From Ulva prolifera (taxonomy: Eukaryota; Chlorophyta; Ulvophyceae; Ulvales; Ulvaceae), in assembly GCA_023078555.1 (NCBI GenBank), contig CM041200.1:7866807-7930806 (forward strand): 64,000 nucleotides of DNA, written 5' to 3'. Within the stretch, counting starts at the first letter, position 1; the number at the start of each line of letters is the position of its first letter. The position numbers and the translations under genes were made by a program. Positions 8,123-62,889 of the stretch are shown here, one piece after another. The notes below the pieces were generated by a model. It searched no databases. It worked only from the letters and a program-made list of their open reading frames with translations, and was not told where the DNA came from.

Positions 8123-8169
8123 ACTGTTAACTATTCGGAGAAGTTCAGAGTGGAAGCGTATAGGGGGTA

Positions 8170-12832: not shown

Positions 12833-15800
12833 TCAAACAGCCGGCACTGCGCCCTCCGCAAAGGCCTGGCTGCAGGCGGTGTGGAACTGCCGCGCTGTGG
12901 CGCGCTGCGTCGGGTCGCGGTGGAGGAGCTGGAGGACCGCGCCGCGCAGCATGCCCAGCGTGCGCAGCGCGGCCGCGGCCGTCTCCGTGTCCTCCCACGG
13001 CAGCTCCTGCTCGCCCTTGAGCTGTGCGACTGCCTGAAGCACTGTCTACTGTCAGCACGTCTCAGCGCGGCACAGTGCCCGGGTCCGTGACGGCGCGCTG
13101 CGAAGCGCAGCATATGGTCGGGAACCGTGACGGCACACAGGCAGCAGCAGCCTGTGGCTGATGCTTGAATGCTTCAAGCGCTGGACCAGGCACGATTCAT
13201 TTGAGCACGATTCATTTGAGCACCTTTGACGCCTTCCCAAAGGCATGCCCACATTTGTTACGACGCCAGCGACGCCTCAATTGCTGGGCGAACTGGTGAA
13301 AAGAAAGAAAGGACACCAACGAATAGCTGCGGGTCCGAGACCGGCGGTGATGATAATACGATCACCGCGGGTCCGCTACCCAGGTAGCTCTTTCATGTGT
13401 AATGACTCCAGAATCGAAAGGCATTGAAGTGCAGCAAGCCACGCACACAGCCCCACTGCAAGCACGAAATATTGTAGAAGACGTCAGGAGGACAGCACAG
13501 GCTGCAGCCGCACCTTGCTCTGGCCCTCAGTCAATATCTTGAACGCGGGCGCGCCCGTCAGCAGCTCATACGCCAGCACACCCAGCGCCCACGCATCCCG
13601 CGCAGCGACACACTCCAGCGTCTCCTCGCCGCGCGCAAACGCGGCGACCACCTCCGGCGCCGCGTACGCGAGCGTGAACCGCATCGGCGACCGCGTGCCG
13701 GCCCGGGCAGCGCGCGAGAAACCCCCCACCGTCCAGCGGTTGTCGATCGCCGTCAGCATGACCTTGGAAGGCTTGAGGTCGCCGTGCACGTACCCCGCGG
13801 CGTGCAAACTCGCGAGCCGCTTCGACACAGCCGACAGCATCTGCAGCACACAGCACGCAGCATGAGAGCCCAGCGCGCCGATGCGCTACCCTGTGAGGTG
13901 TTCCGGGCTGAGCCGGAGCCGTGCAAGGCTGTATTGGCAAGTCGGAGGAGGGTGGGGTGGCTCACCGCGAGGGCGGTGAAGAGGTCGGGGGGGGATCGGT
14001 CCGACCAGTCCTGTAATGACAGCCCCTTGTCCATCACAATGCATGGCGGCAGCGGCCGCCCCGACGGGTCGACGAGACCCCCGGCCTCGGTGTCTAGCAG
14101 CGCATGCACCCTCGGCAGGAATTCGCCGCCTGGCGGCGCGGACGGCGGCGCAGCGTCCGCGGCTTCTTCCGCCGCAGCGGCTAGGGTGGGGCCGAGGGTG
14201 CCGCGGAGGTAGGGTTGGAAGGCGGCGTAGAAGGTCGCTTCGGTGGCAAAGAGGTCCGGGCTGAAGAAGAATTTCACGGCGTATGGCCGGCCACTGTCGC
14301 TGTCGAGCACATGCTGCACAAACGTGTTGCCTACACCCACAGTCCACCTCAGATGCCGCCACCGCACTCCACGTGCTGTGTGCGGGCGTACGAGGACGAA
14401 GCCGATGAACCGCCTGCCTACCGCGGCACCTCAGCACGGACTTGTCGCGCTGTACACAGCTCAATGGGTCCCACAGCACGCAGCACAGCACGACAGACCT
14501 ATTGAAAGGTGCGGCTGGTTGATCGCAAGCGGCAGCTGTGCAGCGACAGGCCGAGAGAGCAGCGCAAATCGAATCGTGCGGCCCATGGGTTTCACAGCCC
14601 CGCAGGTGGCCAGAGGCCTGTTCTCTTCATGCCGCAACCACAAGACGCGGCAATGGCAGCACGCAGCATGCCCATGCACATGCGCAGCCGCAGACGCGGC
14701 GCGCCGTTGCGGCGCTGCAGCGGAGCCCGCGAACGGCTGATGTAGTCAGAACGGTTGGCGGGGGCGCACTCCCGAGGCTGCTTCGATCCCGGCCCAACAC
14801 CTCATACTGGCCCATGAACAGATCGTCCTCATTGAACAGGTCAAGCTGTCGCGACAGCTTCGCCACCTGCCTCGCGCCCTCATCGCGCGGCTTTGCGCCG
14901 CCGACGGCCCCTCCGGCCATCATCCCCCCGGCCGCGGTGGCCTCACTGCCTTTCTCTGCCTCCTGCGCCCGCCGCCTCTGCCGCGCGATCGCCGCGGCCG
15001 CGCACAGTGCGATCGCAAGCACGGCCGCAACGAAGACGGCGACGGCGATGGCAGTGGCAGCGGTGTTGTCATCGCTGTTGTCGGCGGCGCCGGGTGCGAG
15101 CTGTGCGACCGCGTCGGCGGGCGAGAACGGCTGCGCAAGCTCGGCGGAGGAGCGTGGCACATCGGCCGCCGCATCTGGAGGGGCGGTCAGTGGGGGCCAG
15201 TCCGGTGGCGGAGGGGGGCGCTTGGGTAGGACCTGCGCCGTCGCATGCATCTGTCAGCGATCAGAAAGATGACATAGCCAAAAACAACAAAGTAACAATA
15301 TCAACTTGAATTACACATGAATACATTTACGGATATCCTTCGCGAGCAAGTCACGTGAAATCGGCACATGCAGGTAGTTACCACTGCGGCCCCAGATGTT
15401 CAGTGTGAGCCTATCACTTCAAGACGTAACTGAAGTTGGCCCTGCGCATGGCAGAGCTCCACAGCAGACTGTATCGGGTCTCTGCTAGGCTACTGTAGCA
15501 TAGAAGAGACCCGAAGACTCACCTGGTACACACATCCTATCCAAGGGGTAGTGCACAGTCATTACGTCAGTGTTGTGTCGTCAAAATATGAGGTACACGC
15601 GCCCCAGCATGTGCCAGGGGTCACCACGTTGTGACCACAGGTGCTGTGTTGCGTCTGCGGCCGTATGCACGTGGCAGTGCCCGCTTTATGCAGCGCAGCA
15701 CGCGTTTTCAGCATGCATGCGGCTGCGATGGCAGGCCAACGCGAGCTTTGCATTGAAGCAGGTTCCGCACACGAACGCTGAAGGGGGGGGGGGGGGGGGG

Positions 15801-18552
15801 GGGTGGGGGGGGTCGCACCCTCTGGATCCCCGCAAACCAGGGGTCCTCCTCCTGCAGGTTGCCCAGGCGCCCGGCGATGTCCGGCTTGTACGCCCCGTAC
15901 ATGTACGGGGTGTCGTATTCGATAATCCCCTGCCCGTAAATGTATGTAGCCTCCCCCCCAGGTGCAGGCGCATACTCACCGTAGTACTCCCCATACTCGT
16001 AGTCCCCTGTGGCCACAAACGGGGCGCCGCCAGCATAGTCTGCAAACGGCTGCCCCGTAAGCGGCGCGCCGGCGGCAGCACCTGGTGCCCCCCCCACCGG
16101 CGCCGCGCCTGGTGCACCGACAAACTCGTAGTCCGGCTCCGGAGGCTTGGCATTCAAGTAATCGAATTCAGCAAACGGTATCCCGCCGCTGATGCTGACC
16201 CCACCGCCAGTTTCCTCGGGAGGGTCGTAGTACAGGTCCGCGGTGGTGCCCAGGGTACCTGCGGTACTGTTGCTCATGCGCGCAGCGACGGCCGCCCGCT
16301 TCGCCACCGATGCCGGCGGACACCCCGGCTGCGGGGTGTCATCATCCTCCTCGTAGTACTGGAACAGGCAGTCGCTCATGAGCGCGCTCGCAATAGCGTG
16401 GTCCGCGCCGAACACGCCGCCGGCGCCGTCCGGCACCGCCTCCACGTCCACATCGTAGTTCTCGTCATCTGCCGCGTAGTACACGCCGACACTGCCGGTG
16501 GCGGGCGAGGTCAGGTAGTCGTTCATGGACGTCGAGACGATGCGGCCTTGGGGCGGCACGGGGGTGTCTGCGAGGGAGACGTTGCGGAACTGCACGAGGC
16601 CGTTGAAGGAGACGTCGACGAGCTCCGCGGTCTGGCGCATGTTGCGGAAGACGGTGTCCGTGATGCTGGCGCTGGACCACGTGGTGATTTCCAGCGGCGG
16701 CGCCCGGCCGCCCCAGTCTGTGATGATGCAGTCTGCACACATAATGGCGCATGTTGGAGTTGCGACCTTCGGGGTGGGGGTTTGGGTGGTGCATGCACTT
16801 GCGGCTCCTCGCTTAGTTGCAACCCGAATGCATTGGGTATTAGCTGCTAAGCAGCACGGCCATTGTGACTGTTCATATTACCTTGATGAGTGTTGTAGAT
16901 AAAAAAAATACAACAGATTTGGATGAATTGACCAAAGGGCACACTGGGAGCAGATGCAATTGCCTGAGCCTGCATATTGCAACCAGCTGCGTCTTCACCC
17001 AAGCACACGTGCAGCGCGCCCAGCACTGCCATGAGAATCACATGCACCGTGATCACTCTGCATTGCATGGCATGTAGGCCCGACAGTTCTGTTCTCCAGA
17101 GCCATGGATGAGCGCGCAGGGCGACGCTCCTGCCGCAATGTCTCACGCATGAAAGTTCAATGTACCTGGCTCACGTGGCGCTGTGCTGCACAGCACAGCA
17201 CAGCACAGCGCACACAGCGCGGTCTACAACTCCAGGCCATGTCCCACGACGCCACAATCCGCTGACTTCAACAACAGCTCGCGGCGCAGACTGACTCGTA
17301 CCACAGATTCATGCGTGCAAGCTTCACGCAAACTCGCACACAGTCGAGGCCGCACCGCGGAGGAACACGGCGGTGCTTGTGCCGCTTCCCGCAGAGCGCA
17401 CAGCATGCATGCTGTGCGTGCTGTGGCCCTGGAACGTCACCGCAGTCGCATGCAGCTCCGTCATCTCGGGGTCATCGTTCCTCAGAGAGTAGTCGCTGAA
17501 CGCGGAATTGGGCAGCTCCCGGCCGATTGCAACGAAGGAGGGGACGCGCTGCAGGGACGGCAGCACCCGGGCACTGATGTGATGGCGGAGGTAGAGGTTG
17601 TCCAGCCACAGGCGGTTGCGCTGCACGGCGATGAAGGTGTCTGGCAGGAGGAGGAGGCACTGGAAGGGCCGCAGCGGCAGCAGCGGCGCATCCCCGGGCT
17701 CCGGTTGTGGCAGCTGCAGCGCTTGCGATGCGTCCGGGTCGCTGCAGTTGCCCTGCACACCAGCAGAGTCTCCCTGACGTGTCTCCATCGCAGCATCAGC
17801 TGATTACATGCTGCGTCTGACACAGCAGCAGCTGCTCTGTTTCGAAGGCCAACTGTCGCCTCCGACCCGCGCATCCTCCGGTCCGACCTCGGAGGCGGTG
17901 GCCCGCTGCGTTGTCATGAAATCCAATCAAATACGGCACGGCCAAGCTGGGCCTTGCTTTCAAAACCGAAAAATACATTCTTTTGCCACGGCCGGGTGAC
18001 ATGTCGAGGGACGAGAGCAGTCGCGGGCGATGCAGATGCTTTGATCGGGAACCTCGCCTCACAGGACATGGCATACGCAACAAACGCACACGCTGACAAG
18101 GACAGAACTACACCAGCATTCCACGACCGCAGCTGTAGCCCCGGCAGGCATGGAAGGGGCAACACGCAGTCACACGACGCCTCAGTGACGGTCTGCGCCG
18201 GCGTGCTACGGGCGTTGCTCACCCGGATTGACCTCGTGTTGATATCCACCATGAATATCGCCAGCGCATCAAGCTGAATCAGCGCATCGTCCTCCGCCCC
18301 GGCTCCCGTGACGCTCTCGAGGAGGGGCGTGAGGTCGAGGTGGGCGCGGATCTCGATGTCCAGCGCCCCCTGCCGCATCGCCTGCGCAAGCTCGGGCGCG
18401 GTGGACACAACTGTGATGTTGGCAGGGCGGACGTCGAACACCTGAGCAAGCGGCGGAGGGGCAGTGAGTGCCGGCGTTGCGGCGGCGGGTGGCGTTTGTT
18501 CGGAGGCGGGGGGGGCCTGTGACAGGCTGCGTGCGGCTGGTCGAGCTGGCAT
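12833..18552 (-). CDS. Gene A: receptor-like pseudokinase, 998 aa, 7 exons
   Basis: Proposed exons (minus strand): 18552-18223, 17752-17356, 16732-15819, 15232-14770, 14330-13966, 13840-13514, 13033-12833. All junctions are GT-AG and phases close to 999 codons. Residues 1-547 form the ectodomain (ALDIEIRAHLDL, GNCS, PFQC, DCII, MSDC, PGC; Tyr/Gly/Pro-rich end). Then come a PPPDWPPL stalk, a transmembrane helix at about 604-630 followed by RQRRR, and a kinase fold from about 690. Lys721 (YAVKFF) and the TEA Glu are kept, but HRD is HGD (842-844), the catalytic-loop Asn is Lys849, and DFG is GFS (863-865). It is therefore predicted to be catalytically dead or atypical. The F-helix DAWALG and the RATARQF end are intact. 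No signal peptide is encoded after the 18552 ATG; an upstream exon joining at a TTTCAG site near 18565 is likely. Confidence 0.85.
15783..15812. repeat. G tract inside gene A, abutting a splice donor
   Basis: 21 G, one T, 8 G on the plus strand (a C/poly-pyrimidine run in the transcript). It begins immediately after the GTGCGA donor of exon 3 (last exon base 15819). It lies at the start of the intron between ectodomain and stalk exons. Confidence 0.85.
17186..17220. repeat. Short GCACA microsatellite in gene A intron
   Basis: The string CACAGCACAGCACAGCACAG, with edges, lies in the intron between exons 2 and 3 of gene A. No other function is apparent. Confidence 0.6.
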
Positions 18553-21336: not shown

Positions 21337-21337
<1 letters not shown>

Positions 21338-21757: not shown

Positions 21758-24700
21758 AAACCAATCGATTTGCCGACAAAAAATTACAAAAATGGGGAAA
21801 AAACTGACGGCCAGCAAATGGGGTCGTCAATTTCCCCGCGGACAGGAAGGGGTTTCGTGGTGCAAACCGGTCGTTTTCCCGCCAGACTCCGGAAATTTTG
21901 GCTTAACCCCGACGGCGAGCGATCCCGTTGGTTCTCCCGCCAGGAAAAAAATTCAACTGTCGAGCACTGGTCGGGATTGTGGCGTGGGTGCGTTGCGCGG
22001 GGTTGGTGGTCATGTTCTTACGATGCACGATATTTGTCGTGTTTGATTTTTTCTGTGCGGTGCTGTCCGCCTTGCTGCAGCTGTCTGCAGCCTTCAGGGA
22101 TGTTTGTGCCCAAAATGATCTTACAGAAGTATCCCACAAAGCAGGCCTGCGACAATGGAAACTTCGCAGCTCAATCGGAGCAGAGGAAGCCTGAAGACCA
22201 CATGTACAGAAAAGTTTTAATATCTTGACACGGGCCGGAGGGCAGAGCACAACAGTATACCATACCGAACCCGAGGGCTCCGACTCTCGACTTCAAATCA
22301 GGGATACTCGTATGTACATCCAATCCCTAGCTGAGCAAAACCGTGCACTTTGCGGAGTCTGGCGACAGCTTGAAAGCTACCAATTGAGCAATGGTTTCCT
22401 ACACAAAGCAGCTAGTAGCTATATCCCCCTCACCACCGCATGTAGTGCACCGACCCCAAGAACTGCGCACTCGATTGCCATCATGAGATCCTGCACGATC
22501 GTGCCGTGCCTCATGATCAGCAAGGGCTGCACATGCGTGCTCTGACACGCGTTTCACGACATGCTCCCCGCCGGTCTCGACTCGGAGGGGACTCCGGTTC
22601 GGAACTGCGGGCATGCACGGGCTCATGAGTGATCACGCCGCGCGCATGCCGTACACCGCTTGCAAATCAAACGGATGATCTCTGTCCCGATCGCAAGGCC
22701 CGCGGTCAGCTGCAGCGCCGCCGCGCGCATACCTGCAGTTCGCCTTCGCAGCAGTCTGGGTGCGAGTACGTGCACGTGCGAGCCTGCGTGCGCCGGGGCC
22801 GTATCACTTGGAGCTCTAGGTCCACCCTTCACAGATCTGGACTGCTGGTATGGTACAGAACTACACATCTAGCTGTAGACTCCATATGGAGTCCTGATGC
22901 TGCGGCTGGCACAGGAACTACATAGTATGAATAGAACCCCACATCAAGCTGCAAAGGCTCTTGCAACCGTCAGAACCTGGGAGCTGAGCATGGTGGCAAT
23001 GTTCAGAAATCTCTGCGGGGGGTCTGTTGCAGCGTTTGCGTACAGCGATTTACGTCTGCATGTACACCAAGAGGCCTTGCAAGCCATAGAAACAATGAAA
23101 TATCACCTAGCGATACAAAAGTATGGATAAAATTCAGCTGTGGCTGTTCTCCTCACATCTCGGCCGCTCAGATGCCTCGCCCGGTCTGTTGTGAGAAGAC
23201 ATCGCTGCAGGCAGTGTGGAACTGCCGTGCTGTGGCACGCTGCGCCGGGTTGCGATCCAGAAGGTGGAGGACCGCAGCACGCAGCATGCCCAGCTTGCGC
23301 AGCACGGCAGCGCTGCCCGGGCCCTCCCACGGCAGGGGCCGCTCGCCGTGCAGCTGCGCCACCACCTGCATGCGGGCACGTGTCAAACGGTGCTGCCCCG
23401 CCCTCGAGAGCTCTGCCTTCTTTCACCAAGCCAAACCTGAGCTCTGGCTTCTTTCACAGTTGGCAGTTGGGGGCTTGGCATCAGGGGAGTCTGTGAGAAG
23501 CGTAAGGCTTGCAGCGTGTGATGTACTTGAGCAGACTGACATGACAAGTGCCTCATGGCCGGACATGTGTGCACTTTGATCTGGACCACCATCTGGACGT
23601 CCAGTGCAGACCTTGCTTGAAGCTCATGCATGGCGCTGCGGCGGCGTGTGAGCGACGCTGAAGCATCGAGAGTGTATGCGCACCATACACATTTTAATTG
23701 TAAACAAACAACACAAATGTATTCCTGTTCATTCAGAGTTGGCATGGTCCATTACTTATGTACATAAGTAATATAAGTATATATCGATATACCTTCTTCA
23801 CTTTGCAAGCTTGTGGCAGGAGTGTTTTGCTAGGCATCCCATGCAGCTGGAGCAGCACACACCGCTGCAGTGGGAGTGACAAAGTTTGTACGTAATACTA
23901 CTTGTAAGTGTTTGATTGGCACACCTGGGCTTGGCCACCGGCGGCCAGGTCAAAGGCCCTCCACCCAGACAGTGTTTCAAACGCAATCACCCCCAGCGCC
24001 CACGTGTCCATGGACGCCTCAGCCAGCACGCTTCGCTGCCCGGCCACGAAGGCGTGCACCACCTCCGGCGCGGCGTACGCGAGGGTAAAGTTCACTGGGA
24101 CGTCTGTGCCAGTGCGGGCGGCGCGCGAGAACCCTGCGACGGACCAGCGGCGGGTCGCGTCCATGAGGAGGACCTTGGAGGGCTTGAGGTCGCAGTGCAC
24201 GTAGCCGGCGTCATGCAGGCACGCTAGGCGCTGCGCGACGCTGGACAGCATCTGCAGCACACAGCATGCATGGCCATTGGCATGGCGTCGTGGATCTCTA
24301 TCCGGAGAGCGTGCATCCCTCGTCCCCGCTATGCGCAAGCCAGAACCAGATAGCACGCTCACATGACACCACCATGACTGAACGTCATGCATACGCGCCT
24401 TTGGCTGCCACAGCAGCGCCATGCATGAACATTATTGTGAAAAAGGCATTGCCAGAACGACTGCCAGATCTAGACGTCTAGACCAGCTGAGCAAACATGC
24501 TGCCTCGTCCACATGGCTCTGGGTAGATACCAGTTGGACGCACCGCAAGTTCCAAGAAAAGGTCCGGGGGGCCTCGCGCCGACCACTCGAGCAGCGACTG
24601 CCCCTTCGCCATCACCAGCATCGGCGGCAGCCTCCTCCCACCTCCTACCCGCAGCCGCCCGTCCGCGTTTTCCACTAGCTTGTGCACCTCCGGCAGGAAA

Positions 24701-26439
24701 GTGTCCGCCGGGGGTGCGGACTCCGGCGCCGCCCGAGCCGCCGCCGCCGCGGCTGCCGCGGCGGCCGGGGAGAGGTGCATGCGGAGGTCCGGGAGGAAGG
24801 CGGCGAGGAGCGTGGCCTCTGCGCGGAAGGCGGCCAGAGACAGAAACAACTTGACGACGTGGGGAGAGCCATCCTCATCGTCGAGTGCAGGCTGCACGAT
24901 GGTGTGGCCTGCATGTACATACGTAGCGTGCTGGTTTGCTTGTTGTGCATTGCACACATGCATTGTACAAATCACTTTCCACATCGGCGCACGCCGTAGT
25001 GCCGCTGAGGCGCTTAAATGCGTTGAGGCAACTGTGAACATCAGGAAAGTCGATCGTCAAATGATACATATATGCTTACGTATACGTGGCTGTTTGTGGT
25101 TCTGGAATGAAGTGACTCTGCGCGGCAGCGCATGCGCAGGAGCAGTTGTCAACACGTGTGTGCGTATGTGTTTGTGTAGGACCCTGAACTTAATTGAATG
25201 ATGCTGTGAATGGATGGTTCTGGCCGAAGGGGGCACTAGAGCGCACAGCCATGCATGCATGTGCCCCGCGGCAACACCTCAAAACGCCCAAGCAGCAGCT
25301 CTGCTCCATCTCGGTACGTGTCCAACTGCCGCATCGCTACCGCCACGCGCCGCTGCTGCTGGCGTTGGAGAGCTCTCGCATTCACCGGTGGCTCCGCAGA
25401 CTGGCATGGCTCCCACCCGACACCCGCCATCGCCCCTCCCTCGGCGAGCTCCACATGCTTGATGTACGACGTCCTCGCGGCCGCGCTGCGGTGGCGGTCT
25501 CGGCGAAACACAAGCCACAGCACGAGCGCAACAGCAAAACACAGCGCAACAGCGGCCGCACAGACTCCAGCGATTGCACTGCCACTTGGGGTGTTTGCCG
25601 GCGCCATTGCATGGGGGGCTTGTGGGGGGCTCGATGGCCGCATCAGCGCGTCTGCGGCAGAGAATGGGGGCTGCAGCTGAGGCGGCGGCGTCGGGGATGG
25701 AGACAGGGGGGCGGGAAGTATGTATGGCGGCCAGTCTTTGGGGGTCGGGGGGTGGGCTGGCAGTACCTGAAGGTCACACTGCTAGTACTACTTAGTAATT
25801 GTTATTTTTATTTGTTTGATTATGATGGGATGCTTCACACGGCACCGGGTCCTGTGATAGCATGCAGCAATGGCGTCACTGGCAGTGGCTGCAGCTACGC
25901 AGAGGAAGTGGAGCCGTATGCAAGCTCGAGCGCTCGGGGAGCCGGCCAAACGGAACACGCAGCGTCCTTCCAGTTCCATGTGTGAGCGGCACGCTGTCGT
26001 CAAGCAGACGAGCAGCATCCCCGGTACGTGTACGAAGCTGAAAGCGATGTCGCAGCATTGCATGCACACATCGAACAGTCATCATCCGCAGACGTCCGAT
26101 TGAGATGCAGTTGCTGAAACCTGCGTGCTGTACACTTTATGTGATTGTGTGTGAGCGCCTATCGCAAGAGATCTGCTGTATTTGTCTGCGCTCGTTTAGC
26201 TTCGGGGGACTTCTGTAAAACGACTAAACAGTGTAGCATCACAGCCGCACACGGCTGGCGCTGGGGGAAAGCTCACCGCTCGGAGAGCCGCCAACCACGG
26301 GTCGTCCGGCCCAATCATGGGCCAAGGCTCCCGATCAAACTGACCCGTTCCTAGATCAATATCCAGCAGAATATCATCGTGGACAGGCTCATCCTCCATG
26401 CGAAGGGGTCCTGCATGCATGCACTACAAGAAACACGGC

Positions 26440-29400
26440 AGCCCCAAGGTTCAACAAGGTGCCCCATATGGATTAGGGGCTGTTGGGTTGAGAGGTGAAC
26501 AGCCCCAGTCTTCATTTGGGGCTGTTTCGCTGGCTGGCGTCCACGGGCGCTTTGATCACATGCCGCACCAAGGCAATAAGGTAGACATTTGGCACACCAC
26601 AGCTACGGGGCCTTTAAACGGCGAACACCCAAGTGGGACATATGGGGCACATTCGTGAACGCTCCAAGGGGCGCTTTTGGTCGACTCGCACTGTCCTCTA
26701 AGCTACGCACATCTAATGCAGCAGGGTGTATTGCCACTGGTATGGTCTACACATTGTTTGACTGGCATGCGCGTGCTGCGAAGCGTGGTCCTTTGAAGTG
26801 CTGGCTCGTTTTCACGCACTTGTATGGACAGACCCGCCCACGCGCTGAGCGCGCGCTCCATAGCCCTACTATGACTAGTACTGGATACAAAAGCAGAGCG
26901 CTGAGTTTTGTGCGACTTGATCGCTGTTCCAGTGGCCGTCGTCGAGAGGGAGGCATGCCTTCACGCACACTCGTCACCACTTACGATGTCGCCCTCAAGT
27001 GAAGGGTCTCGGTCTCGCAGCTGAGTTGGCTCAGTAGATTCAAGCGGTTAACAAAGCCTCCAGCACCCTCATGCACATTGAATCACCTTCAGTAGCCTTC
27101 TGAAGTTCGTGCTTATTCAGCGACTGTTGCGTGTACGTACACTGTCTCGAAGTACTACAGCGCTTAGTAGCTACAGCGCTTGCTAGCCGATCACTTCAGG
27201 GCGTCGACAGTAAGCTTCGCAAGATCAGACTCTGTTATAGAATACGGTGTTCGAATCATCAGGTTTTGGCAATGTTCGGCTCTGCTGTAGACACACTACG
27301 GCGGTACCACCGTCGCTGGCAACTAGGCGTGGACGTATCACCGCCATCAAGGCCTCGATGAAGACGTTCATACAATCGTGTTCGCTTTGATTGGTGTGTT
27401 CTCTCTGTGCGGGATTGCTTCAGAACGTCAACAGATTATGTGAGCGCCGATTGCAGAAGTCTGGATGGCCTCCCCATGTAGCCTACGCTGCTCACTGTAG
27501 CGACATGGGCATTCTCCATGGAGCTACTCTCGAGAAGAGTGCAATGACATCGACTTCTGTGCAGGGATGCTGGCATACCAGCGTTCGGACTTGACCACCG
27601 GACATTGGGCCTTCTCAATGATTTAGTTGCAGTCCAACAAAGCCAGCTCGGACGATTTTTTGTGTCAGGTGCAATCAACCACCTCCAGGTAGATTCTGCT
27701 GGTCTTCACACTCGATACTGATTCATGCCAAGAGCACTGGGGCATTGAAGCATGTTGCTGCAGCCATGTCAGATAAGCTGCCCCGGGGTGCAGCAAATCA
27801 CGAGCAGCTCCGCTGCAATTCAGCAAATCCAACGCACCCTCTCGTAGGTACGTGAATCCTTATCACACTTTCGGCCAGTACAGAGTCTGTGTTTTCTGTG
27901 AGCGCTAGCTATGCACTTGTTGATGCCTCGGCTCTGCTACCACTGACCGTGCGTGAGAGTGTGTGCACATGTTTTGCGACAAAGTGCGCCATGTCAGCTA
28001 CGACAGACAGTTGCATTGTTGCCTACTCTTTCATTCATGGCTGCTTCAGCAATGATGGGACACATTTGCCGTCCATAGTGCGCCATGCCAGCTACGGTAG
28101 ACAGTTGCATCGTTTCCCACTTCTTCATTCGCAGCTGCTTCAGCAATGCTGAGACATAGACTAGCATGCAGGTCAGCCGCATACAAACACTGTCGGGATG
28201 CCGGACACTGATTTCAACCTGCCATGTGCAAAGGTATGCTGCCCATCAGTGCAGAGACCATTGCAGATAGAGCCCATTGCTATTTCAGCTGTGAACCATA
28301 GCCTACCTCGGTATATCAAGACTGAGCTCCTCTGAGTGTGCAGAGATTGAGAACTACGCGGCATCAACACAAGAAGTAAGACGCCCCACCTGTTCCAGTG
28401 CCAGACATGCACGCAGATGCACAATGCTGCATGTTTTTGCAGGTCATTCTTCTCTTTTGGTTATGGTAGCATTTATCTGCCTTATGCAGGCCCTACCAGC
28501 GTACGGTTTTGATGAGAAGGCCAACTCGAGTACAGTGTAATCTGAAGCAGCTTCAATATAGTCTGATGCTCTGATGATCATGCCTGTACAGCCGTGCTGT
28601 AGCAGGCTATGCCATAATGTAGTGCTTGCTGATCCTCACCATTGCAGTGCATTGTTTTCTGCCCCAAATAGTATTATGTGATGTTTCTGCCCCATTTTCG
28701 GGATATGTGCCCCATATTCGAGCAAAAGTGTCAGTATGCCATGTACTCTTGCATCCCACAATTCATTAAGGACACAATCATGCTCCTCTTGGTGCTCAAT
28801 CACACAGGGCTGCCACAGCCTTTACAAGCCTGTAAAAAGCTCATTTGCGCAGTACAAACGCAAGCAAACACGCAAGTGTTGTCAAAGTAATGATGTGACA
28901 GTACAACAACTTATTGGGCAAGATTGTGGCCGCTGTCGCCGTCCAGATCTATGGCATCGTTGCATGTACCAGCCGCGAGCAACCGATGCATCTCTCGGCA
29001 TGATCAGAAGATGCGAGACAACGCTGCGTACAAAGCCTGGTAGTGTGCATACACTTTGCTATCATCTGTATCAATACCGTGCGTCGAAACCAGGTCGCAA
29101 TCGTCCTCCTGCCACAAGTGCTGTTCACCAAACATGCTTGGTGCTGTTCGTCACGCACCGCCCAATGCGCCGAGCCAGCGCCGTTTCACGCACTTTGTCC
29201 TGCTACAAGCAAGACAGTATATTTATTAGTTGAATGGCGTTCGCGTTACTGAAGTCTATCCCGTATTGGGCTGGATCGCGCAGTTGATCGCATCTGCCCC
29301 ATGCCAGGAGCAGCCCAAGGGCGCTAGCATTAGTGCCCATATATCTAGACAGATCTGTCCCATACGTCCGAGATCAGCACCAAGCTCCCAGTCAAAAACT

Positions 29401-29600
29401 GCCCCAACTGCACGCACAGGGCAGTCGAGATTCTTGTAGTGATGCGGGATTTCTACATGAGGGCCGTGGCCACAGATGACACGGAAGGCCATCGCAGCTG
29501 TGAGCTAGTACTGTGCACATCATGATCCGCCACATGATATATACATCAGGTTGCAGTCATCGGCCACGGTGATGAACCAAGTCGACCTGCAACGGCCAAG
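26440..29600. other. Extra DNA of about 3.1 kb in a gene C intron
   Basis: The matching intron of gene B is 372 bp, and its outer parts resemble the edges of this intron, so about 3.1 kb appears inserted here. I see no transposase, reverse transcriptase or LTRs. It contains an imperfect tandem duplication (27984-28156) and generally lower GC than the exons. The target-site duplication was not resolved by eye. Confidence 0.55.
27984..28156. repeat. Imperfect tandem duplication, about 94-bp unit
   Basis: GTGCGCCATGTCAGCTACG..CTGCTTCAGCAATG occurs at 27984 and again at 28078 with scattered substitutions. It lies inside the enlarged intron of gene C. Confidence 0.75.
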
Positions 29601-30145
29601 CAACGGCTCTGTCAGACTGCGTCACAGTATCTCACGTGTACGTGTACATGCAAGCTCCCCGTGTGGCCCCACCACCCTCCAGCAGGTTGCGGGCTGCAAG
29701 GAGTTCAAGCTCCCTCCCAATTCTGGCAGTGTGACATGCGTACTATATAGTATATGGCATACAGCGTCCAGCGCAGCATGCGTGCTTCGTACCTCTGCGC
29801 GCATCGAGATCTAGATCTGCCTCGCCTGGAGCCTGGGCGGCCGCACAGGCGCGGCTGCGGGCATATGCCTGCTCTCGGACCGCAGCGGTCGCTGCGGGGC
29901 ATCCGGGGCGCCAGGCGCCTTGCGTCACAAACACAAACGCGTTCGCGCAATCGCTCATGGCGGCGTCGCGGATGCGGAACTCCTCCCGAAACACGCCACG
30001 GTCGGCTGCAGGCACCGGCTCCAGCGGCACATCATACGCCTCGTCATCCTCCGGATATGTGGCGGTTCCGGGCGGGTACAAGAACACGCGCCCGCAGCCA
30101 GGCACAGGGAAGCTTGGTATCGACAACATCTCAAGATAGTCATGA

Positions 30146-30165
30146 CCATCAATGATCATTGATGG
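30146..30165. repeat. 20-bp palindrome at the gene C frameshift
   Basis: CCATCAATGATCATTGATGG is a perfect palindrome at the place where gene C carries 19 nt more than gene B. The minus strand reads TTINDH then TGA. The insertion therefore looks templated from the adjacent ACCATCAA. Confidence 0.85.
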
Positions 30166-46900: not shown

Positions 46901-49845
46901 GGGTTCACACGCCATGAGGATGGTGATTGTTGCCGTGAAGAAACGGATTCTGGCAGGCGTTCCTTTTGCACGAACAGATGTGCACGCTACGGAGACGGCG
47001 ACTGGAGGATGGAGGCGGCCGCACCGCCGGGAGGTACGCGTTCCGCGGACGCCGCCGCTTCACGGCAACCCACGCCCACAGCGCCGCGATGGCTGCAAGC
47101 ACGGCCGCCGCCAGCAGCGCGAGCACCAGGCCGCGGCCCCACGCCGGCATGCCGCCGCCGCCGCCGCCGCCGCCGCACCCCGACGCCTCGGCGGCGCACC
47201 TCCCAGCATCGCCCTCAGGCGCGTGAATTCTGTCGCTTGGCATCTCAGGCACGAGCTGCACGCGCTGTGCAAGGCCTGCGTCCGTGACCGACGCGGCGCG
47301 GAGGGCGCTGGGAGGGGGCCCGCCGGGGGGGAGGTCCACGGTGAAGGGGGGCCAGTCCGGGGGGGCTGGGGCCCGAGGCGGAAGGATCTGCATGCATGCA
47401 GTGCGGTTAGTGCACCTGAAGAGGAACCCCCCTGTAGCCACCGCCTCACACGCCCCCATGCACGCAGGCACTGTACCTTGAGCGTCTCGGCGAACCACGG
47501 CGTCTCCTCGTGGATCAGATTCCCGGTGATCTCGTCATTCGGATCCTCCCATTCGTACGCTACCCAGTGCGACCCATCATGCTCACCTCCCACTCCAACC
47601 GCCCCGTACTCCTCTACGAGGTACCGATCAAACAGCTCCCTCCGCGCAGCCGCCGCCGCCTCGGAGCAGCCGGGCATCGTCACGTTCCGCTCAAACCCCA
47701 AGAAGAGGCAGTCGCTCAACATGTCGTCCTCGATGACGTAGTCCGCGCCCCACACCCCCCGCTCCGCCGGCGGCACCGCCGCGACCGCGACGTCGAATGC
47801 GGCGTCGTCCTCCGGGTCGTACTCGAGGAGTTCATCGCCGACGAGGTGGAAGTCGTTCGTGGTCGTGCCGACGATGGCGCCGCTCGCGAGGGAGACGTTG
47901 GCGAAGCGCGTGTTGAGGAAGCGGACGGTGCTGCCGAAGGAGACGTCGGCGAGCTCGACGGTGAGGCGCATGTTGCGGAAGACGGAGTTCGCGACGAGGG
48001 CGGTGGCGCGGTAGAAGAGGGTGAGCGGGGATTCAAAGCCGTTCCAGCCTGTGAAGATGCAGTCTGCACGGCGAGGCAGTGATGAAAAAATAATATAAAT
48101 TACAGAGCAGTGTAAAGTAAAGTCAATCCGAATTTACTGAGCCGTATCCAGTTGGACATTGACAACTCCGAGTTGACGGGGCCACATGTGCCGAGTGTTG
48201 TGTACGGGGGGCAATGGTTGAACTGCAGGACAGTGCATTGTGCAGCAATGTGCGAATCGGTCCGGACGGTGTTCGGGAAGGCTGGCTATGGGTCGAAAGG
48301 GAGGGCCACGATGGACAGACGGTGGCCGTGAGGGCAGATCGCGAAGAGGCCCTGGCGCAGCGTGAAGAGGGTGAGCAGTGTTCACTTCCAACACAGCGGC
48401 TGGCCGCGCCAAGCGCGCCGCTGCATGTTCAGACATGATTGATGAGCAATCAGTGAACGCATGCGCCGGCGCCTTGCGGCCGCACAGCCCGCATGCGTGT
48501 TGACACCATTCTGCGCCAGCTCCCTCCAACTGCCACACGCTGTGCGTAGTGAAGTGTGAAAGAGCCGCGTCGGCGGGGCAACGTACTGTGGTCCACCCTA
48601 ACCCCGGCATCCGGTGAGCAAACACGGTGAGCAACAGGGTGCACCACAATCGGCGGAACAGCTCTGTCGTGACAAAAAGTACAAGCATGGCCACCGCAGA
48701 GCGACGGGGCGCAGCACAGCGGACCTCCGAAGAAGGCGCGCGTCTGCATCGCGTCTGAGAAGTACGCCCGCGCACACCCCCGCGGCTCGCCGTGGAACGT
48801 CACGTTGGTCGCGTAGAAGTCACTCCGCTGGATCTGCGGCGGGTCGACCTCGTCCTGGAGCGCCGTGCCGGCCGCGATGAACGCCATGCGCGGCCGCACG
48901 GCGGTACGCCGCAGCAGCAGGTACACCCCGTCCAGCCACACCTTGCCGCTGTTCACGCTGAGAAGCGGTTCGTGCGTGACGAGGAGGCACTGCCGTGGCT
49001 TCAGGGGCAGGAGGTCGGTGGCGGTGGCGGCATCGAGGCGCAGCACGCCGGCGGCGTCGGGGTCGCTGCAGTTGCCCTGCAGATGTGCGCTATGCATGAG
49101 TGCGCGGCCGTTGTGCGCCAGGAGGAGGCTTGCGTGAACGGGTGACTCCGCAGATGAGATCTGGCAACACCAGAATTTTGGGAGGTAGGGGGGGGGGGGG
49201 GGGGGGGGGGGGGGGTCTTGCTACACAACTCTTCTAGCATAGACAAAGCAGCCTCACAATTAGTTGGAAGATTGTTTGTGAGTGAGACACAAGCTGAAGG
49301 CAGCCTGTGCCGTTTGATGCACACATGAAAGGCACGTGAACGCCGATGCATCATGTCGGCATGTGTACTTCGAATCGACACGGTGCCTGAAACCTCCCGC
49401 CGAGACACACAAGTGCGCCATGTTCACCTCAGCAACAGCTTCCAAGGCACGGCCAGCACCCTGCAACTCGCAAAACGCAATGCAGGCCCAGGCGGGCAAC
49501 AGGGGCTCCAGGCTCCAGGGTTGTGGAGTTGGGAGCCCACACCCTGATGGAACGCATGGAGAGGTCCGCATAGAGGAGCGACCTCCTGCCGAACTCCTGC
49601 ACGGTCCCAGAGAAGAGGCCGCTGGGGTCTTGGGCGAGGTCCAGCGAACGGAGGTCGAGGTGCGTGCGGATCTCGATGTCGAGTGCCCCTCGCAGCGACG
49701 CCTCCTGTAGCTCCCGCGCCGTCCACACGACCGTGATGTTCGCGGGAGGGTGGCTGTGGGGGTGGCTGTGGGGCTGGTGCGCGCTGTGCTGTGGCGGCGG
49801 CTGCGGCGCTGCCGCCGGGGCCAGAGGATGCCGCTCCTTAGCCAT
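43910..49845 (-). CDS. Gene D: receptor-like pseudokinase, 993 aa, 8 exons
   Basis: Proposed exons (minus strand): 49845-49543, 49076-48725, 48063-47477, 47387-47025, 46733-46505, 46257-45845, 45255-44929, 44317-43910. All are GT-AG and phases close to 994 codons. The ectodomain (to about 414) has ALDIEIRTHLDL, GNCSDPDA, PRQC, DCIF, LSDC and PGC. A PAPPDWPP stalk, a Gly run and a transmembrane helix at about 500-523 followed by KRRRPR come next. The kinase fold keeps Lys631 (YAVKFFL) and the SEA Glu, but HRD is HRS (768-770), the catalytic-loop Asn is Ser775, and DFG is SFT (789-791), so it is predicted inactive. The N-lobe has a long Ala-rich insert. It ends with about 70 extra residues beyond its sisters. 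The frame stays open upstream of the ATG to a good acceptor (CCCCGCAG, about 49897), so a signal-peptide exon further up is likely. Confidence 0.85.
48112..48196 (+). repeat. Dispersed TAAAGTAAAGT repeat, copy 3
   Basis: TGTAAAGTAAAGT..GAATTTACTGAGCC..TTGGACATTGACAACTCCGA..CCACATGTGCCGAG, in intron 2 of gene D. It is shorter than the pair around gene B exon 1. Confidence 0.8.
49188..49215. repeat. 28-base G homopolymer in gene D intron 1
   Basis: An uninterrupted G run between exons 1 and 2 of gene D, about 110 bp upstream (in transcript order) of the exon 2 acceptor. It is a C run in the transcript. Confidence 0.88.
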
Positions 49846-56360: not shown

Positions 56361-58240
56361 TCACGCCTCGACGGTGGTTCGGCTTGCAAAGAGCTTGGTG
56401 CAGGCGACATGGAAGCGGCGCATCGAGACACGGCGGGTGGGGTCGCGCTGCAGCAGCTGCAGCACCGGGCCCTTGAACGCGCCGAGCTTGCGCTGCAGGT
56501 CTGTGCTGAGCTCGCCCTCCCACGGCAGCGGCACGTCGCCCTTGAGCTGCGCGATAGCCTGCAAGCACGGGCAGCGCTGTTGGGATGGTGGTGTCCTCCA
56601 TGCCTTGAAACGTAGACAGATGTGGGAACAAAAACGTGCTGCGCTGGCTGCTGCCAGCTGTTGTTCCGAGAGAAATGCTGCTGCCGTTTACGCATGCGCT
56701 CTGATGTGATCTGGTGTAGTCTCTGCAACTTTGTGATTTGTGCGGAGGCACGCTGATGCAGCAGTTGATGTTCAGCACAGGCAATGCGCGCGCCTCTTCT
56801 CCTCTGATGGATTCTGCTGCAACAGAATTAAAAAATAAAATTAAAAAAAGGCACGCTGTGCCAATCTTGGCCAAAATTGACCGGCAGCTACAGGCTGGGC
56901 CTGCTACAGACACACAGTCTGCACAGTCTGCACAGAAACAAGAGACAGACACAGTCCGCTGCCAGAAACACCTGTGCTGAGAGGGCAGGTATGGGCATGC
57001 ATTGACACATGGGTAATTCACATCCTCCAGAGAGCTTCACATCCCCTGTCCCCTTTGGTGGCTGCCCCACTGGGAGGTGATGGAACAACTCATGTTTGGA
57101 TCATGGGAAGTCAGTTTTTGTTTCCAACAGTAACTATTTCATGGGGGATTTCTCACAGGGGACTGGGCTGTCCCCATGCCTGGACATGTGCTCACAGCAG
57201 AGAGTGAGCCAGGCCAAAGCCTCACAAGGAACTTTTTCGGTAGGTGCCAGCAGAAGTGCAGGACCCCATGCATGTGTTCTGGTGCAGCCCACAACTGCAA
57301 CTCCTGGCACCATAACTGTCCACTTCTGGCACCTGTGAACACGTCAAAACAAAACGGGAACCCAGTGAAAAGCGAAACCGGTGAACCCCCAGCTCATGCT
57401 GTGCCTGTCTGCTGCTTCCTGATATGTGCAGAGGATGCTGTGATGGGAAATGGTCTGGCATGTGAACAGGATACAGATCAGACAGATGTGTACTGTGCAC
57501 AGGGTGGTTAGCACCAGGTGGTCTGCCCTGTAGGGTTGTGCTCTTGTCCACACAGTTCACCTTACCACACCTCACCACAAGATGAGACTCATAAATCCAA
57601 GCAAGAACACCCTAGCAAGTTGAGAAACTTGCATGTGGTCCTCACCAACAGGTAGGAATGTGACATTGTGTCTGCACAGACTCTGGCAGATGTGTGAGTT
57701 TGACCTCAGACATGATACATGCATCATGCCCTGCCTGCCGGTGTCTCTGTAATGCAGACCATATCCCAGCAGGATCGCACACACCTGACACAGCATGCTG
57801 CAGCAACCCACAAGCCCCAAGTCACAAGCCCCAAGTGCGGGATGTCTATCTCACACCCGACTCTATCACCCATTGACTCACCACGTGAGAAACAAAGACG
57901 GTCATGGTCAAGGTCAGTCAAACGACAGTCTCAACATACTGTGAAAATGCCCAACATGAATTAAGATACGAAAAACAGGAAATGCACGCACCCGGCAGCG
58001 GCCTTCGGTGAGGAGCTTGAATGCAGGAGCGCCAGTGAGCAGCTCAAACGCCATGACGCCGAGAGACCACGCATCCAGCGCCGGGGTGGACTCAATCTCT
58101 GGGCAGCTGCTCTGGTACGCTTCCACGACCTCCGGGGGGGCGTACGCGAGCGTGAAGCTCAGCGGCGCCACCTCCCCGATGCCTGCGACGCACCCAAAGT
58201 CGATCACCGTCCAGCGGTTCTCACGGGGGAGCCACATGAC

Positions 58241-58277
<37 letters not shown>

Positions 58278-61200
58278 TCGTGCATGTCCGCGAGGCGCAT
58301 CGAGATGTTGGACAGCACCTGCAGAAACACATCGGGGCGCTGAACACCCAAACAGCACCGGCAGTGACGGAACACATTGTCGATGGAGTACAGGGGCGCT
58401 ATAGGTCTGCGCAAAACAGGGCTGACGAGTGCACCGATTCACGGCAACGCCTCCCCAGCACGCAGCACGCATGCGGGAGCGCACCGCGAGCGCGGTGAAC
58501 AGGTCCGGCTCGGCACGGTTGCTCCACTCCTGCAGGCTCTCGCCCTTCTCCATCACGATGCACGGCGGCAGCGGCCGGCCGTTCGGGTCCACGAGGCCCC
58601 CGGCCGCGCCGTCGCACACCGCCTCGACCTGCGGCAGGAACCGCGCTGCGGCAGCCGACATCTGGACGGCCGCGCCGCCGCCGACGGCCGTCGTGGCGGA
58701 CATGTCGGCCGCGCGGGCCGCCACCTCCGGTGAGAGAGACTCGCGCACGTCGGGGAAGCAGGCGGCGTAGAGCGCGGCCTCGACGAAGAAGGCGTCGGGG
58801 TCGAGGAAGAACTTGACGGCGTAGTCGCAGCGGTCGCGTGCACCGCGCGCAAACTGCACCACCGCCTGGCCTGCATGGCACAAGGGGTGCTTGTTTATCT
58901 CCTGATCCGATGCCATACACTCGCACGATCAATGGGCCGACTCCCACGGGCCCTCTGAGTAGCCTGCACAATTCGTGAGCCCGCCGTCTTGGCACCCTCG
59001 GGTGAACAAACCGCGGGACCACTCCGCAGAGTGGCGCATGATGCGTACATGCCGCGCCGGGTGCGGCGTGAATGTGTCAGGGGAGCGCACCGCCGCGCCG
59101 CCGCTGCTGGCGGCCGAGAAGCTCGAACTTGCCGAGGAACAGGTCCTTCTTCGTGAACACGTCGAGCTGCTTCAGCACGGCGCGGATGCCGGTCTCCGAC
59201 ACCGTCGCGTCCGTCGTCTCGAGGCCGACGTCCCCCGCCGGCGCGAGCGTGGAGTAAACGCCCCGGCGCCCGGCCCCGGCTGCAATCTCTCGCGCGCGCT
59301 CTTGCTCGCGGGCCTGCAGCGCCGCAGCCGCGCCGCTCGCGGACGGCTCCTCGTACACCGCGTCCTCCTCGATCGTGCCGTCCACCGTGCGCTCCCGCGT
59401 GCTGCGGCCCTCCGTCTGCCGGCCATGCGTGCTCTGCGTGTGCGGAACGTACACACGGGTGCGATTCGAGTCGATCGTGTCGCCGTACGGCGAACGCACG
59501 ACCGTGCTGCCGGTGACGCCGCTCGAGCGCGCCTGCAGACTCGGCTCGCGGTAGGCTCCGAGGGCCGGGGCCGTGTAGTTGCCGACGGCAGATGCGCCGG
59601 ACGCGAGGGAGGGGGTGTGGCCGATGCTGCCGGCCCCGCTCCTCCCGGCCTGGCTCCCGGACGCATCGCCGCCGCTCATGTTGCCGGTGGATGAGAGGTC
59701 GATGAGCGGCTGGTCGGCCGCGGGCGCACGCACGCCGCGCTCGGCGGCGTCGCCGCGGAGCGACTCTGACGGCACGTCGGCGACGGTGGCGGCGTGGCGG
59801 TCGCGGCGAGACGCCGCCGCCGTCGCGGCCGCCGCGACGACGCCTGGCGGGTCCGGCCGCGGCGCGCGGTACCCGCCTGCCTCTCGGTCAAACAGACTCG
59901 GCTTGAGCATCTCGTCAGGCTCATCCTCCGGCTCCGGCGCAACGAGCGCGAGCGACTTCGGCAGCTCGTACTCGTAGTTAGGGTTGAGCGCGGACGACGG
60001 CATGCTCGCATCGCGCTGGAGGGAGCCCTCGTGCCTCAGGGTTCCAACCGGGAAGTCGCGGATGTGAGCCTGGGAATCGTCGTCGGAGTCGATGGAGCCG
60101 GAGCTGTGCGGCAGCGCTGCGCTGGCGCCGCCGACGAGGTCGGCCGCCGAGCCGCGCGCGGAGTAGCCAACAAACGTGTCGTCGGGGTGCTCCGCAAAGC
60201 CGGAGCCGGTCGAGATGAGCATCGCTTGCCCTGCGGACTGCATCGCGAAACCGTCGAGGTGCATCGTCTTCGCTTGGAGCACCTGCAGACACCACCCGTC
60301 TCACGTGACACACAAGGTGAGACGCGCGGGGGCGCACGCTGCCACGATTCGGCCGCCGAATCTACACCATGGTGCATGCAACCGGCACCTACGCATGCAG
60401 TAAATGCACGCGCACCGTGGTCACGTCGCCACCGAGCGCCGGCAGCCCGCCCGAGCCGCCGTCGCTGGTGCCCGTGAACCCGGCGACCTTGCCGCCGGCG
60501 CCGCGCTCCGCCTTGCGCCGCCGCGCCCCCACGCACCACCACAGCACGCCGGCGAGCGTGGCCGCGAGCAGCGCTACGATCACGATCAGCAGCACCGCGA
60601 TCGTGTCAAGGGAGTCGCCGTCGTCGCTGACCTCGCGGCCCGCGGCGAGGCCCGTCGCGATGTCAAGCGGCTGCGCGAGGTTCACCTGCACCTCCTCCGG
60701 CACGACCTCCGGCTCCGTCATGATGCCGCTGCGGTTGACGGCCGGCCCGGCCTCGACGACCAGCGGCGGCCAATCCGCCGGCGCCGGCGGGAAGTCCGGG
60801 AGAGCCTGCAGGACGTACATCACCATTGATATCACACGGTTTCGGGCTCACCCGCGCGGGCACGGCGTGAGCGTTGCTGTGGAGAATTCAGATGCCATGC
60901 GAGCTGACACTGCTGCAGTGGCTGGCTTGTGCTGCCACGCGTGCAACACCACATCGAAATCGCAGTCGTACATCAGCGAACACATGGGGGGCTGCTCTTG
61001 AATATGCACACGCAGCCGCAGGTGCCTTCGTCGCCTCAAATATACTTATCGCCCTCATGCACACATGAACCCAAGGGAGACATCCCCACCCAACATCGCA
61101 CTGCATGCATAGAAGTCATATGGTATGACTCACGCACCTTTTGTGTCGCGAGCAGCCACTCGTCGTCCTCCTGGACCATCAACACCGTGAATCGCAGCTG

Positions 61201-62889
61201 CGGGTCATTGATCACCTCGTAGTCTGTCAGCTGGTCCGGCGAGTCCACGACATCGATGGTAAACAGCTGATTCCCATAGTCCGGCCCAAACCCGTAGTTC
61301 TCGTACCCTGCGCCGCCGTCACCACTGTAGTCCCCAAATGGCACCCCTAACTCATAATCCCCTGCAGGCACAGCGCCCCCGGCCGGCCCCGCCGCGCTGT
61401 AATCCGGCAGAGGGCCGTCATTGGAAAACGGCACGCCCGTGCTCTCGCGGTCGCCGCTGCCGGCGAAGCCGCGGTCGATCGTGCGGTTGCGACCGGCGCG
61501 CGAGGACGCGGGGCACCCCGGGAGCACCGACTCAGGGGGGCGGAGCAGGTAGATGCAGTCGCTCATCGTGTCGTTGACGATGCGGAACTCCTCCCGAAAC
61601 ACGCCGGCGTCCGCGGGGGCCACCGCGACGACGTCGACGTCGTACGCCGCATCGTCCTCCGCGTAGTACAGTATGTAGAACCCTATCGCCGTCTGGTAGT
61701 CGTTGAGGGTCGTGCTCACGACGGCGCCGTGCTCGAGGGACACGTTGGCGAGGGAGACGTTGAAGAAGTGGACGGTGCCCTCGTACGAGACGTCGACGAG
61801 CTCGGATTCGACGCGCATGTTCCGGAAGACTGTGTTACGGATGTGGCCGACGCTCTGGAACTTGAGCGTGATGAGGGACTCAAAGCCGGCCCAATCCGAG
61901 AAGATGCAGTCTGCACGCGCCCGAGCGGTGGTACAACAGAAACGGCACGTGCGCCGGCTGTGTCAATCACGGTGTCAGGGGCGGCCGGCAGTGCTCCGCC
62001 TGGTGCGCGCTCCTTGGACACAGACCCCGGTTCAACCTCGGTTCTTGGTGAAGCTGAGCCCCAGGAAGCCACACAGCGCACAGGCATCAGGACAGGTGTG
62101 ATGATTGATCAGCCACGGCAGGCAGACCCGAACCAGGAAACGTGTGATGCCTCACGGACGTATTTCACCGCAGACGATGTTTTTTTTCAGGGGAGTCGGT
62201 GCACCTACACCAGGCTCGGCTGTGCCCCGCACGGCACCGCAGCAGCACACGCCGCGCGGCTCCGAGGGGCGGGGCCTGAACACATACACAACAATTCCAC
62301 ATATTCAGGTCTACGTTCTGGAGGCCAGCTCTGAAGGTCCGTGCTGAGCCGGTGCGGCATGTTCACCCAGGCTGCCGCGTAGCGTGTGTGCCGCAAACCC
62401 ACGACATCCCCACCAAAGCAGGGCCGCCGTGCGGCGGGCACGGTGCGCCGGAGGTGACTGTGAGGGGTGCATGCCGGCGCAGGGCTGCAGGAGCAGGGTT
62501 CCCCCGCGCAGCCCCGGCAGCCACCCGAGCAGCCCCGCACCGTCAACAAAGTAGGAGATCCCGGTCAAGTCGCCGACGAGCGCGCGCGCGTTGCCGCGGT
62601 GCTCCGCCTGGAACGTCGAGCCCGTGATGTACACCGTGCTGCGCACGACGCCCGGCCACTGGAGCTCGCCGTTGAGGGCGCCGGCGGTGATGAAGGTGAA
62701 CGAGGGCCGGGCGATGCGGCGCGCGAGCTTCAGGTACACGTTGTCGATCAGCATGCGGCCGTTGTTGACCATGAGCCACGTCTCGTTGACGACGAGCATG
62801 CATTGGAACGGCCGGAGCGGGATCACGTCGGCGGCGTCGCCCTCGGTCAGGTTGAGAGCCTTGACTGGGTCCGGCTCGGTGCAGTTGCC
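56361..62889 (-). CDS. Gene E: receptor-like protein kinase with canonical active site, 5' end outside window
   Basis: Proposed exons (minus strand): 62889-62541, 61910-61138, 60805-60416, 60282-59091, 58870-58485, 58318-57992, 56558-56361. They give 1204 residues plus a first exon not found before the right edge. The ectodomain has GNCTEPD, PFQC, DCIFSDW, MSDC and PGC; then PAPADWPP, a transmembrane helix at about 442-467 and ARRRK. A 397-codon exon adds an acidic/Ser-rich juxtamembrane region ending QLDVFTKKDLFLGKFELLG. The kinase domain is complete: Lys921 (YAVKFFL), VEA Glu, HRDLKPAN (Asp1051, Asn1056), DFG (Asp1070-Gly1072), APPE, DAWSLG and the C-lobe TRR. It should be able to phosphorylate Ser/Thr (HRDLKPxN is the Ser/Thr-type loop). 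This is the only member of the array with an intact active site, and so possibly the signalling partner or ancestor of the others. Confidence 0.88.

Follow-up and report, generated by a model that had tools for sequence, protein, structure and literature searches.

A tandem family of receptor kinases with an un-named ectodomain in Ulva prolifera includes adjacent predicted pseudokinases probably under purifying selection

A stretch of 64,000 nucleotides from the green alga Ulva prolifera (contig CM041200.1 of assembly GCA_023078555.1; C5:7866807-7930806 in our contig numbering), referred to below as the window, carries at positions 12833-62889 five minus-strand paralogues, genes A to E, each of which combines ectodomain sequence with a [DE]WPP stalk, a single hydrophobic segment and a kinase domain. 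We favour, with moderate confidence, the reading that they belong to a lineage-specific receptor-kinase family with a branch of pseudokinases maintained by selection, and we infer that these would function as non-catalytic co-receptors or decoys. The case is built in silico on the architecture and expansion of the family, the loss of kinase motifs, the constraint on the altered kinases and exon exchange elsewhere in the cluster. The loss of catalytic residues in four of the five window kinases goes beyond an earlier note made on this DNA.

Kinase motifs were read in 50 distinct middle kinase exons, from the window and from tabulated loci with tblastn matches at E <=1e-8. Where readings of one place overlapped they were counted once, and two distant kinases found as Pfam loci (L005, L006) were left out. 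HRD, the loop Asn and DFG were all present in 45 of the 50. The loop Asn and the DFG Asp were both lost in four, which are exactly genes A, B, C and D, and the HRD Asp is also absent in C and D, being retained in A and B (HxD). Based on these motifs A-D are predicted pseudokinases. They are still recognisable as kinases, as gene A matches PF00069 at 1.6e-14 and B, C and D align with E along the kinase exons. One further copy (L072, C5:7664837-7665175; 1/50) has HRN for HRD with the loop Asn and DFG intact, and is possibly another inactive kinase. With the C kinase as a query no close relative was found outside the window (best identities 53-54%, at C9:1754255 and C5:8724754), and the same applied to the D kinase (53%, except for one last-exon match at 61% and a few first-exon matches at <=55%). 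The five genes, modelled by homology in a single genome assembly, are as follows (window coordinates).

12833..18423, minus strand: gene A, predicted receptor pseudokinase
18423-18223, 17752-17356 (GNC/QC) and 16732-15819 (CII/SDC/PGC), minus strand: gene A ectodomain exons
15232-14770, minus strand: gene A exon for the DWPP stalk, transmembrane (TM) segment and juxtamembrane part
14330-13966 (N lobe), 13840-13514 (catalytic loop/DFG region) and 13033-12833 (C lobe, stop), minus strand: gene A kinase exons
13514..13840, minus strand: gene A catalytic-loop/DFG exon, with HGD..K and GGFS (loop Asn to Lys, DFG to GFS)
23168..30366, minus strand: gene B, 5'-truncated copy, predicted pseudokinase
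30366-29896, minus strand: gene B late ectodomain exon remnant, with a net 10-nt insertion compared to C and a stop near 30150
25766-25247, minus strand: gene B stalk/TM/juxtamembrane exon, open
24908-24544, 24251-23925 and 23365-23168, minus strand: gene B kinase exons, open; kinase motifs HCD..K and AGFS
31543..38293, minus strand: gene C, predicted receptor pseudokinase, close relative of B
38293-38063, 37124-36770, 35521-34944 or 34935, and 33996-33489, minus strand: gene C exons
33123-32759, 32467-32141 and 31740-31543, minus strand: gene C exons, continued; kinase motifs HCN..K and AGFS
43910..49743, minus strand: gene D, predicted receptor pseudokinase
49743-49543, 49076-48725, 48063-47477 and 47387-47025 (DWPP, TM), minus strand: gene D exons
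46733-46505, 46257-45845, 45255-44929 and 44317-44120, minus strand: gene D exons, continued, the last reading on to a stop at 43910-43912
44929..45255, minus strand: gene D catalytic-loop/DFG exon, with HRS..S and SSFT (HRS for HRD, SSF for IDF)
56361..62889 within the window, minus strand: gene E, receptor kinase with intact motifs
62889-62541, 61910-61138, 60805-60416 (DWPP, TM) and 60282-59091 (large juxtamembrane), minus strand: gene E exons
58870-58485, 58318-57992 and 56558-56361, minus strand: gene E exons, continued
57992..58318, minus strand: gene E catalytic-loop/DFG exon, with HRDLKPAN and VIDFG intact; the VAVK-type Lys is also intact

The kinases of A-D do not look like decaying genes when their codons are compared. 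Between B and C, 295 kinase codons contained 36 synonymous and 25 nonsynonymous differences (synonymous divergence dS 0.167, nonsynonymous divergence dN 0.040, their ratio omega 0.24), synonymous changes being about four times more frequent per available site (Fisher p 5.7e-8). The B-C dS was 0.04 in the N exon versus 0.26-0.30 in the other exons, a pattern suggestive of patchy conversion, and the N exon alone gave an omega of 0.57 on 10 changes. With A as an outgroup, one amino-acid change fell on B and eight on C, compared to 10 and 11 synonymous changes, a contrast that was not significant (p 0.10), with 14 and 12 changes left unpolarised. A single-ratio codon model estimated omega at 0.12 for A-D and at 0.15 for 31 intact-motif copies, which are those of the 46 copies other than A-D with more than 300 bases of the kinase N exon read (15 dropped). 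Fixing omega at 1 cost 121 log-likelihood units for A-D (from -3152.0 to -3273.1, kappa held at 1.84). Pairwise ratios among the older copies (A-E, excluding B with C) were higher, 0.36-0.74, as is expected if synonymous sites are near saturation. In neutral simulation at 0.4-0.8 substitutions per site, the kinase domain was left with zero stops in 0.5-1.5% of 1000 runs, indels uncounted.

The change has been concentrated in the kinase part of some of these genes. When both parts were paired in 23 genes (A, C and D, together with 20 intact-motif copies, E among them), the kinase had a median distance from the intact copies of 1.52 for A, 2.34 for C and 1.61 for D versus 0.53-0.96 for the 20 others, and the median ectodomain distance was 2.50, 1.80 and 1.98, respectively, versus 1.07-2.02. 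As the kinase distances of C and D lie far above the intact range and their ectodomain distances do not, the kinase change in these two is disproportionate. The tree of the 50 kinase copies grouped A with (B,C) at 100/99 and placed D next to this group at 89/86; as the branches are long, the catalytic residues may have been lost once or twice. In the ectodomain tree A stands apart from C, and A, C and D form no group, but neither grouping was rejected (approximately unbiased test, p 0.18 and 0.08).

The gene models agree with the order of parts expected of single-pass receptors. Self-comparison of the minus-strand open reading frames (ORFs) of the window yielded five sets whose exons resemble one another and follow a common order, with kinase-exon E-values between the paralogues of ~1e-13 to 1e-92, and the GT/AG junctions common to the paralogues fall at the same residues and phases (mid exon end 1, late exon start 1, stalk exon start 0, kinase N exon start 1, later kinase junctions 0). 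The spliced models begin at the first conserved ectodomain exon found, and the 5' end of gene A (signal exon, start codon) was not found. Gene A has seven exons and 955 aa, and gene E seven exons within the window and 1204 aa, both free of internal stops; gene D closes over eight exons without an internal stop and continues past the stop position of its paralogues, and gene C closes with either of two late-exon donors. The [DE]WPP motif followed by a hydrophobic, predicted TM segment was found in all five genes (maximum mean Kyte-Doolittle value 1.95-3.01 over 19 residues), and so was the order ectodomain, single TM segment, kinase, the ectodomain of B being broken. A stretch resembling a signal peptide was found upstream of E alone, outside the window.

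The earlier note had described five minus-strand paralogues with ordered shared motifs, stalk, TM segment and kinase, and both the ORF self-comparison and the junctions confirm this. Some of its details need correction. It named gene C as a copy keeping only the later ectodomain exons; the truncated copy is instead the second from the left, B (23168-30366), and as its late exon is a remnant with an insertion and a stop, not even the later ectodomain exons have been kept intact. The homology between B and C stops just upstream of this remnant. Gene E, taken to end at 62889, has its first ectodomain exon at 64333-64530 (window coordinates), beyond the window. Two features were particular to single genes: D has, at 43910-44122, about 70 extra C-terminal residues past the paralogues' stop unless this part is spliced, and the juxtamembrane exon of E (59091-60282, 1192 nt) is Ser/Gly/Ala-rich with a counterpart that is absent or much shorter in A-D.

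Several observations weigh against the interpretation of a selected pseudokinase branch. The clade of A, B, C and D lacks firm support, the codon model fits a single ratio to only four sequences with long branches, and the ratio of kinase to ectodomain distance in A (0.61) is within the intact range (0.29-0.68), A being fast in both parts. The ectodomain of B is broken, D reads through the stop codon of its paralogues, and neither a start exon nor a signal peptide could be assigned to any of A-D. The VAIK-type Lys and the C-helix Glu are retained in all four, together with the HRD Asp in A and B, so residual or atypical activity is possible. In addition, kinase matches on other chromosomes were only partly read, and nine of the 50 kinase exons are more distantly related and are counted on the kinase alone. 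These nine are on C1, C7, C23 and at C5:5.0 Mb, and the identical C23 and C7 copies are perhaps one gene assembled twice.

If A-D were functionless duplicates of active receptor kinases in the process of decay, the truncation, frame break and stop in B, the missing paralogous stop codon in D and the long kinase branches would be readily understood. We nevertheless regard such pseudogenes as an unlikely explanation, since A, C and D are free of internal stops over seven to eight exons with conserved splice sites, since neutral change seldom left one kinase domain free of stops in the simulation, and since the low omega, the strong rejection of omega = 1 and the excess of synonymous change between B and C all indicate constraint. 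Constraint on the kinase domain would equally be expected of enzymes with atypical chemistry, such as metal-independent or non-phosphorylating transferases, and the ATP-anchoring Lys and C-helix Glu in all four genes, with HxD in A and B, would fit them. This seems to us less probable still, because both metal-binding residues are gone in all four, C and D are also without the catalytic base, and the replacement residues differ between D and A/B/C with no sign of a preserved alternative active site. Finally, errors in the assembly or in the gene models could be suspected where homology-based models come from one assembly, but the substitutions lie within long open exons with conserved flanks at four loci, and the residues differ between A, B/C and D, which makes such errors very improbable.

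The reading that we prefer, selection on non-catalytic receptors, would involve the following course. A family of single-pass receptor kinases with a Cys-conserved ectodomain lacking a named relative would have been enlarged by tandem duplication, with exon exchange between neighbours, and an adjacent branch comprising A, B, C and probably D would have lost the metal-binding residues of the kinase and yet been kept by purifying selection. By analogy with known receptors, the dead copies would still be displayed on the membrane, bind a ligand or partner and regulate intact paralogues such as E by pairing with them, as non-catalytic co-receptors, inhibitors or decoys. Gene B, with its broken ectodomain, may be dying or may act only via its membrane-anchored pseudokinase.

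The array extends beyond the window on both flanks. In the host genome (88.9 Mb searched), 38 loci of the late ectodomain exon were found on C5 between 7.225 and 8.489 Mb (1.26 Mb), five of them inside the window; outside C5, C10 has two such loci and C4 has one, and other places in the genome gave weaker matches. The ectodomain of E and a divergent copy gave the same picture as queries. The count was made by hand with split pieces of one exon merged and is a lower bound; the C5 match at position 7508626 (E 5e-5) was excluded from it, as were weak ones on C1 and C9. The 38 include some partial exons and some with a stop in the matched frame. The earlier proposal of a locally expanding surface-receptor family is thus backed more strongly than it was put. 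The strand varies along the array: it is plus for the copies at 7.82-7.86 Mb, minus for A-E and for those at 7.94-7.97 Mb, and plus again for the next copy, at 7.985 Mb. Weak ectodomain matches on C1, C2, C3 and C9 have kinase matches of this type ~3-8 kb away, which suggests a wider dispersed receptor superfamily. Among viruses and prokaryotes, none of the 84 pattern hits from viral contigs or the 597 from prokaryote genomes was confirmed as a relative. A sex or mating-type locus was considered as the cause of the cluster and rejected, as the only two RWP-RK matches in the genome are on C2 and C3 and none is on C5, although this is a weak test.

Exchange between paralogues was seen at C5 7.33-7.39 Mb, in a part of the cluster outside the window. 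In four neighbouring genes there, the near-identical pairs in the mid exon (dS 0.012 and 0.074) differ from the near-identical pairs in the kinase (0-0.07 and 0.02-0.06; other kinase pairs 0.78-0.89). One pair has a mid-exon dS of 0.012 and a kinase dS of 0.78-0.86, and another a kinase dS of 0-0.07 and a mid-exon dS of 0.52, these mismatches indicating that gene parts have been exchanged or converted between the paralogues. The late exon is intermediate (dS 0.09-0.28) and closest for one kinase pair.

The ectodomain was assembled for 14 copies from the conserved parts of three exons, and 13 were aligned, giving 43 invariant columns. The five Cys motifs pointed out previously hold in this alignment, as the Cys of GNC, QC, SDC and PGC is invariant in 13/13 copies and that of C[IV][FI] nearly so. 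In the copy left out (C5:7283617-7285162; L025, L038), SDR replaces SDC, the PGC motif is missing and the Cys of C[IV][FI] lies outside the matched stretch, which may be a frame error or a real loss. The suggestion that the ectodomain is not a named family also stands: Pfam contained no family for the E ectodomain and no credible one among the 13 members (the best being single weak Maf_N and pentapeptide matches, E 0.13-0.99), and the ectodomain profile had no credible match among solved structures (best in PDB E 0.33, a ribosomal protein). Among the titles and abstract openings listed, none describes this ectodomain or receptor family, and no paper was found that combined beta-helix, receptor kinase, ectodomain and algae.

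A right-handed beta-helix, as was proposed earlier, is a plausible fold for the ectodomain. An Asn-hydrophobic motif, chosen after the sequences had been seen, occurs 5-8 times per ectodomain versus about two in shuffles (approximately threefold), and hydropathy repeats weakly at 25 residues (z 2.2-2.4, the highest among 34 lags). The fold itself was not borne out by the Pfam and structure searches, and an AlphaFold2 model of E's late exon, made with the four window paralogues (five sequences), was unusable, with a predicted local distance difference test (pLDDT) of 34.8 and a predicted template modelling score (pTM) of 0.29. The window ectodomains have a repeated Asn and hydrophobic pattern in common with the beta-helix proteins of the pectate-lyase-like type, and their opening resembles the VxTxxELxxA of these proteins, from which they differ in having no Pfam or solved-structure match.

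Plant receptor-like kinases (RLKs) of the RLK/Pelle class likewise consist of an extracellular domain, one TM helix and a cytoplasmic kinase, and plant RLKs, including tandem-expanded groups, form local clusters of many paralogues. The window family differs in having an ectodomain without a Pfam model and a kinase whose match to the generic Pkinase model PF00069 (2.1e-17) is far stronger than that to PF07714 (1.6e-5). Among the best 60 of 924 solved-structure matches were kinases of the S6K, CaMK, PknB, Aurora and PAK4 types and none named as a plant RLK. Because of the better generic fit and these nearest listed structures, we have not filed the family as RLK/Pelle.

BIR2 of Arabidopsis is an RLK/Pelle member with a leucine-rich repeat ectodomain. 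A review describes BIR2 as a membrane receptor whose kinase is inactive and which controls the active receptor kinase BAK1 by competition (PMC10868138). Genes A, C and D are similar in being membrane receptors with a predicted inactive kinase, although a partner is known only for BIR2. The ZED1/ZRK proteins are receptor-like cytoplasmic kinases (RLCKs) without an ectodomain or TM segment. ZED1 and seven ZRKs (RLCK XII, Arabidopsis) are described as a pseudokinase gene cluster working with active kinases in immunity (PMC6634424). Clustering of related pseudokinases is shared with the window family, whereas A, C and D are predicted transmembrane receptors beside an intact paralogue.

Other elements were found around the receptor genes. 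A Ty3-type long terminal repeat (LTR) retrotransposon occupies window positions 3233-8493, with an intact minus-strand ORF at 3615-7562 (protease, reverse transcriptase, RNase H, integrase), and its direct repeats are 100% identical over the 300 nt shown, so the insertion is probably recent. Beside gene A on the plus strand, the locus L037 (C5:7862632-7866066) encodes an EWPP stalk in frame in addition to its mid and late ectodomain exons. The downstream stretch of window 1-12800 yielded no kinase exon, with 740 bases between the two unread; L037 may encode a receptor-like protein without a kinase, or it may be a gene disrupted near the retrotransposon. Short tandem duplications (64-83 nt) lie outside the modelled exons at 53954-54083 and 27980-28156. 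The G+C content of the window is 0.52-0.70 per 2 kb, which resembles the 57.3% given for Ulva compressa (PMC9266709). Light-harvesting genes in the genome agree with a photosynthetic organism of the green lineage, and APAF1_C, reported in Ulva mutabilis (PMC8891106), had no match there, a negative that is not proof of absence.

A table in the review cited above for BIR2 gives about four RLKs in Chlamydomonas reinhardtii and one in Ulva mutabilis (PMC10868138). With so few RLKs per chlorophyte in that table, 38 loci would be a large lineage-specific receptor repertoire. More tentatively, and with rather less than even confidence, the cluster may represent a fast-evolving green-algal recognition system in which exon-shuffled ectodomains and kinases are combined with selected dead transmembrane receptors tuning the active ones, a parallel to BIR2/ZRK and to animal receptor pseudokinases but of independent origin. 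The un-named ectodomain is a candidate for a new extracellular recognition module, and with dead and intact copies side by side it could be tested directly whether arrays of tandem receptors give rise to pseudokinases and retain them.

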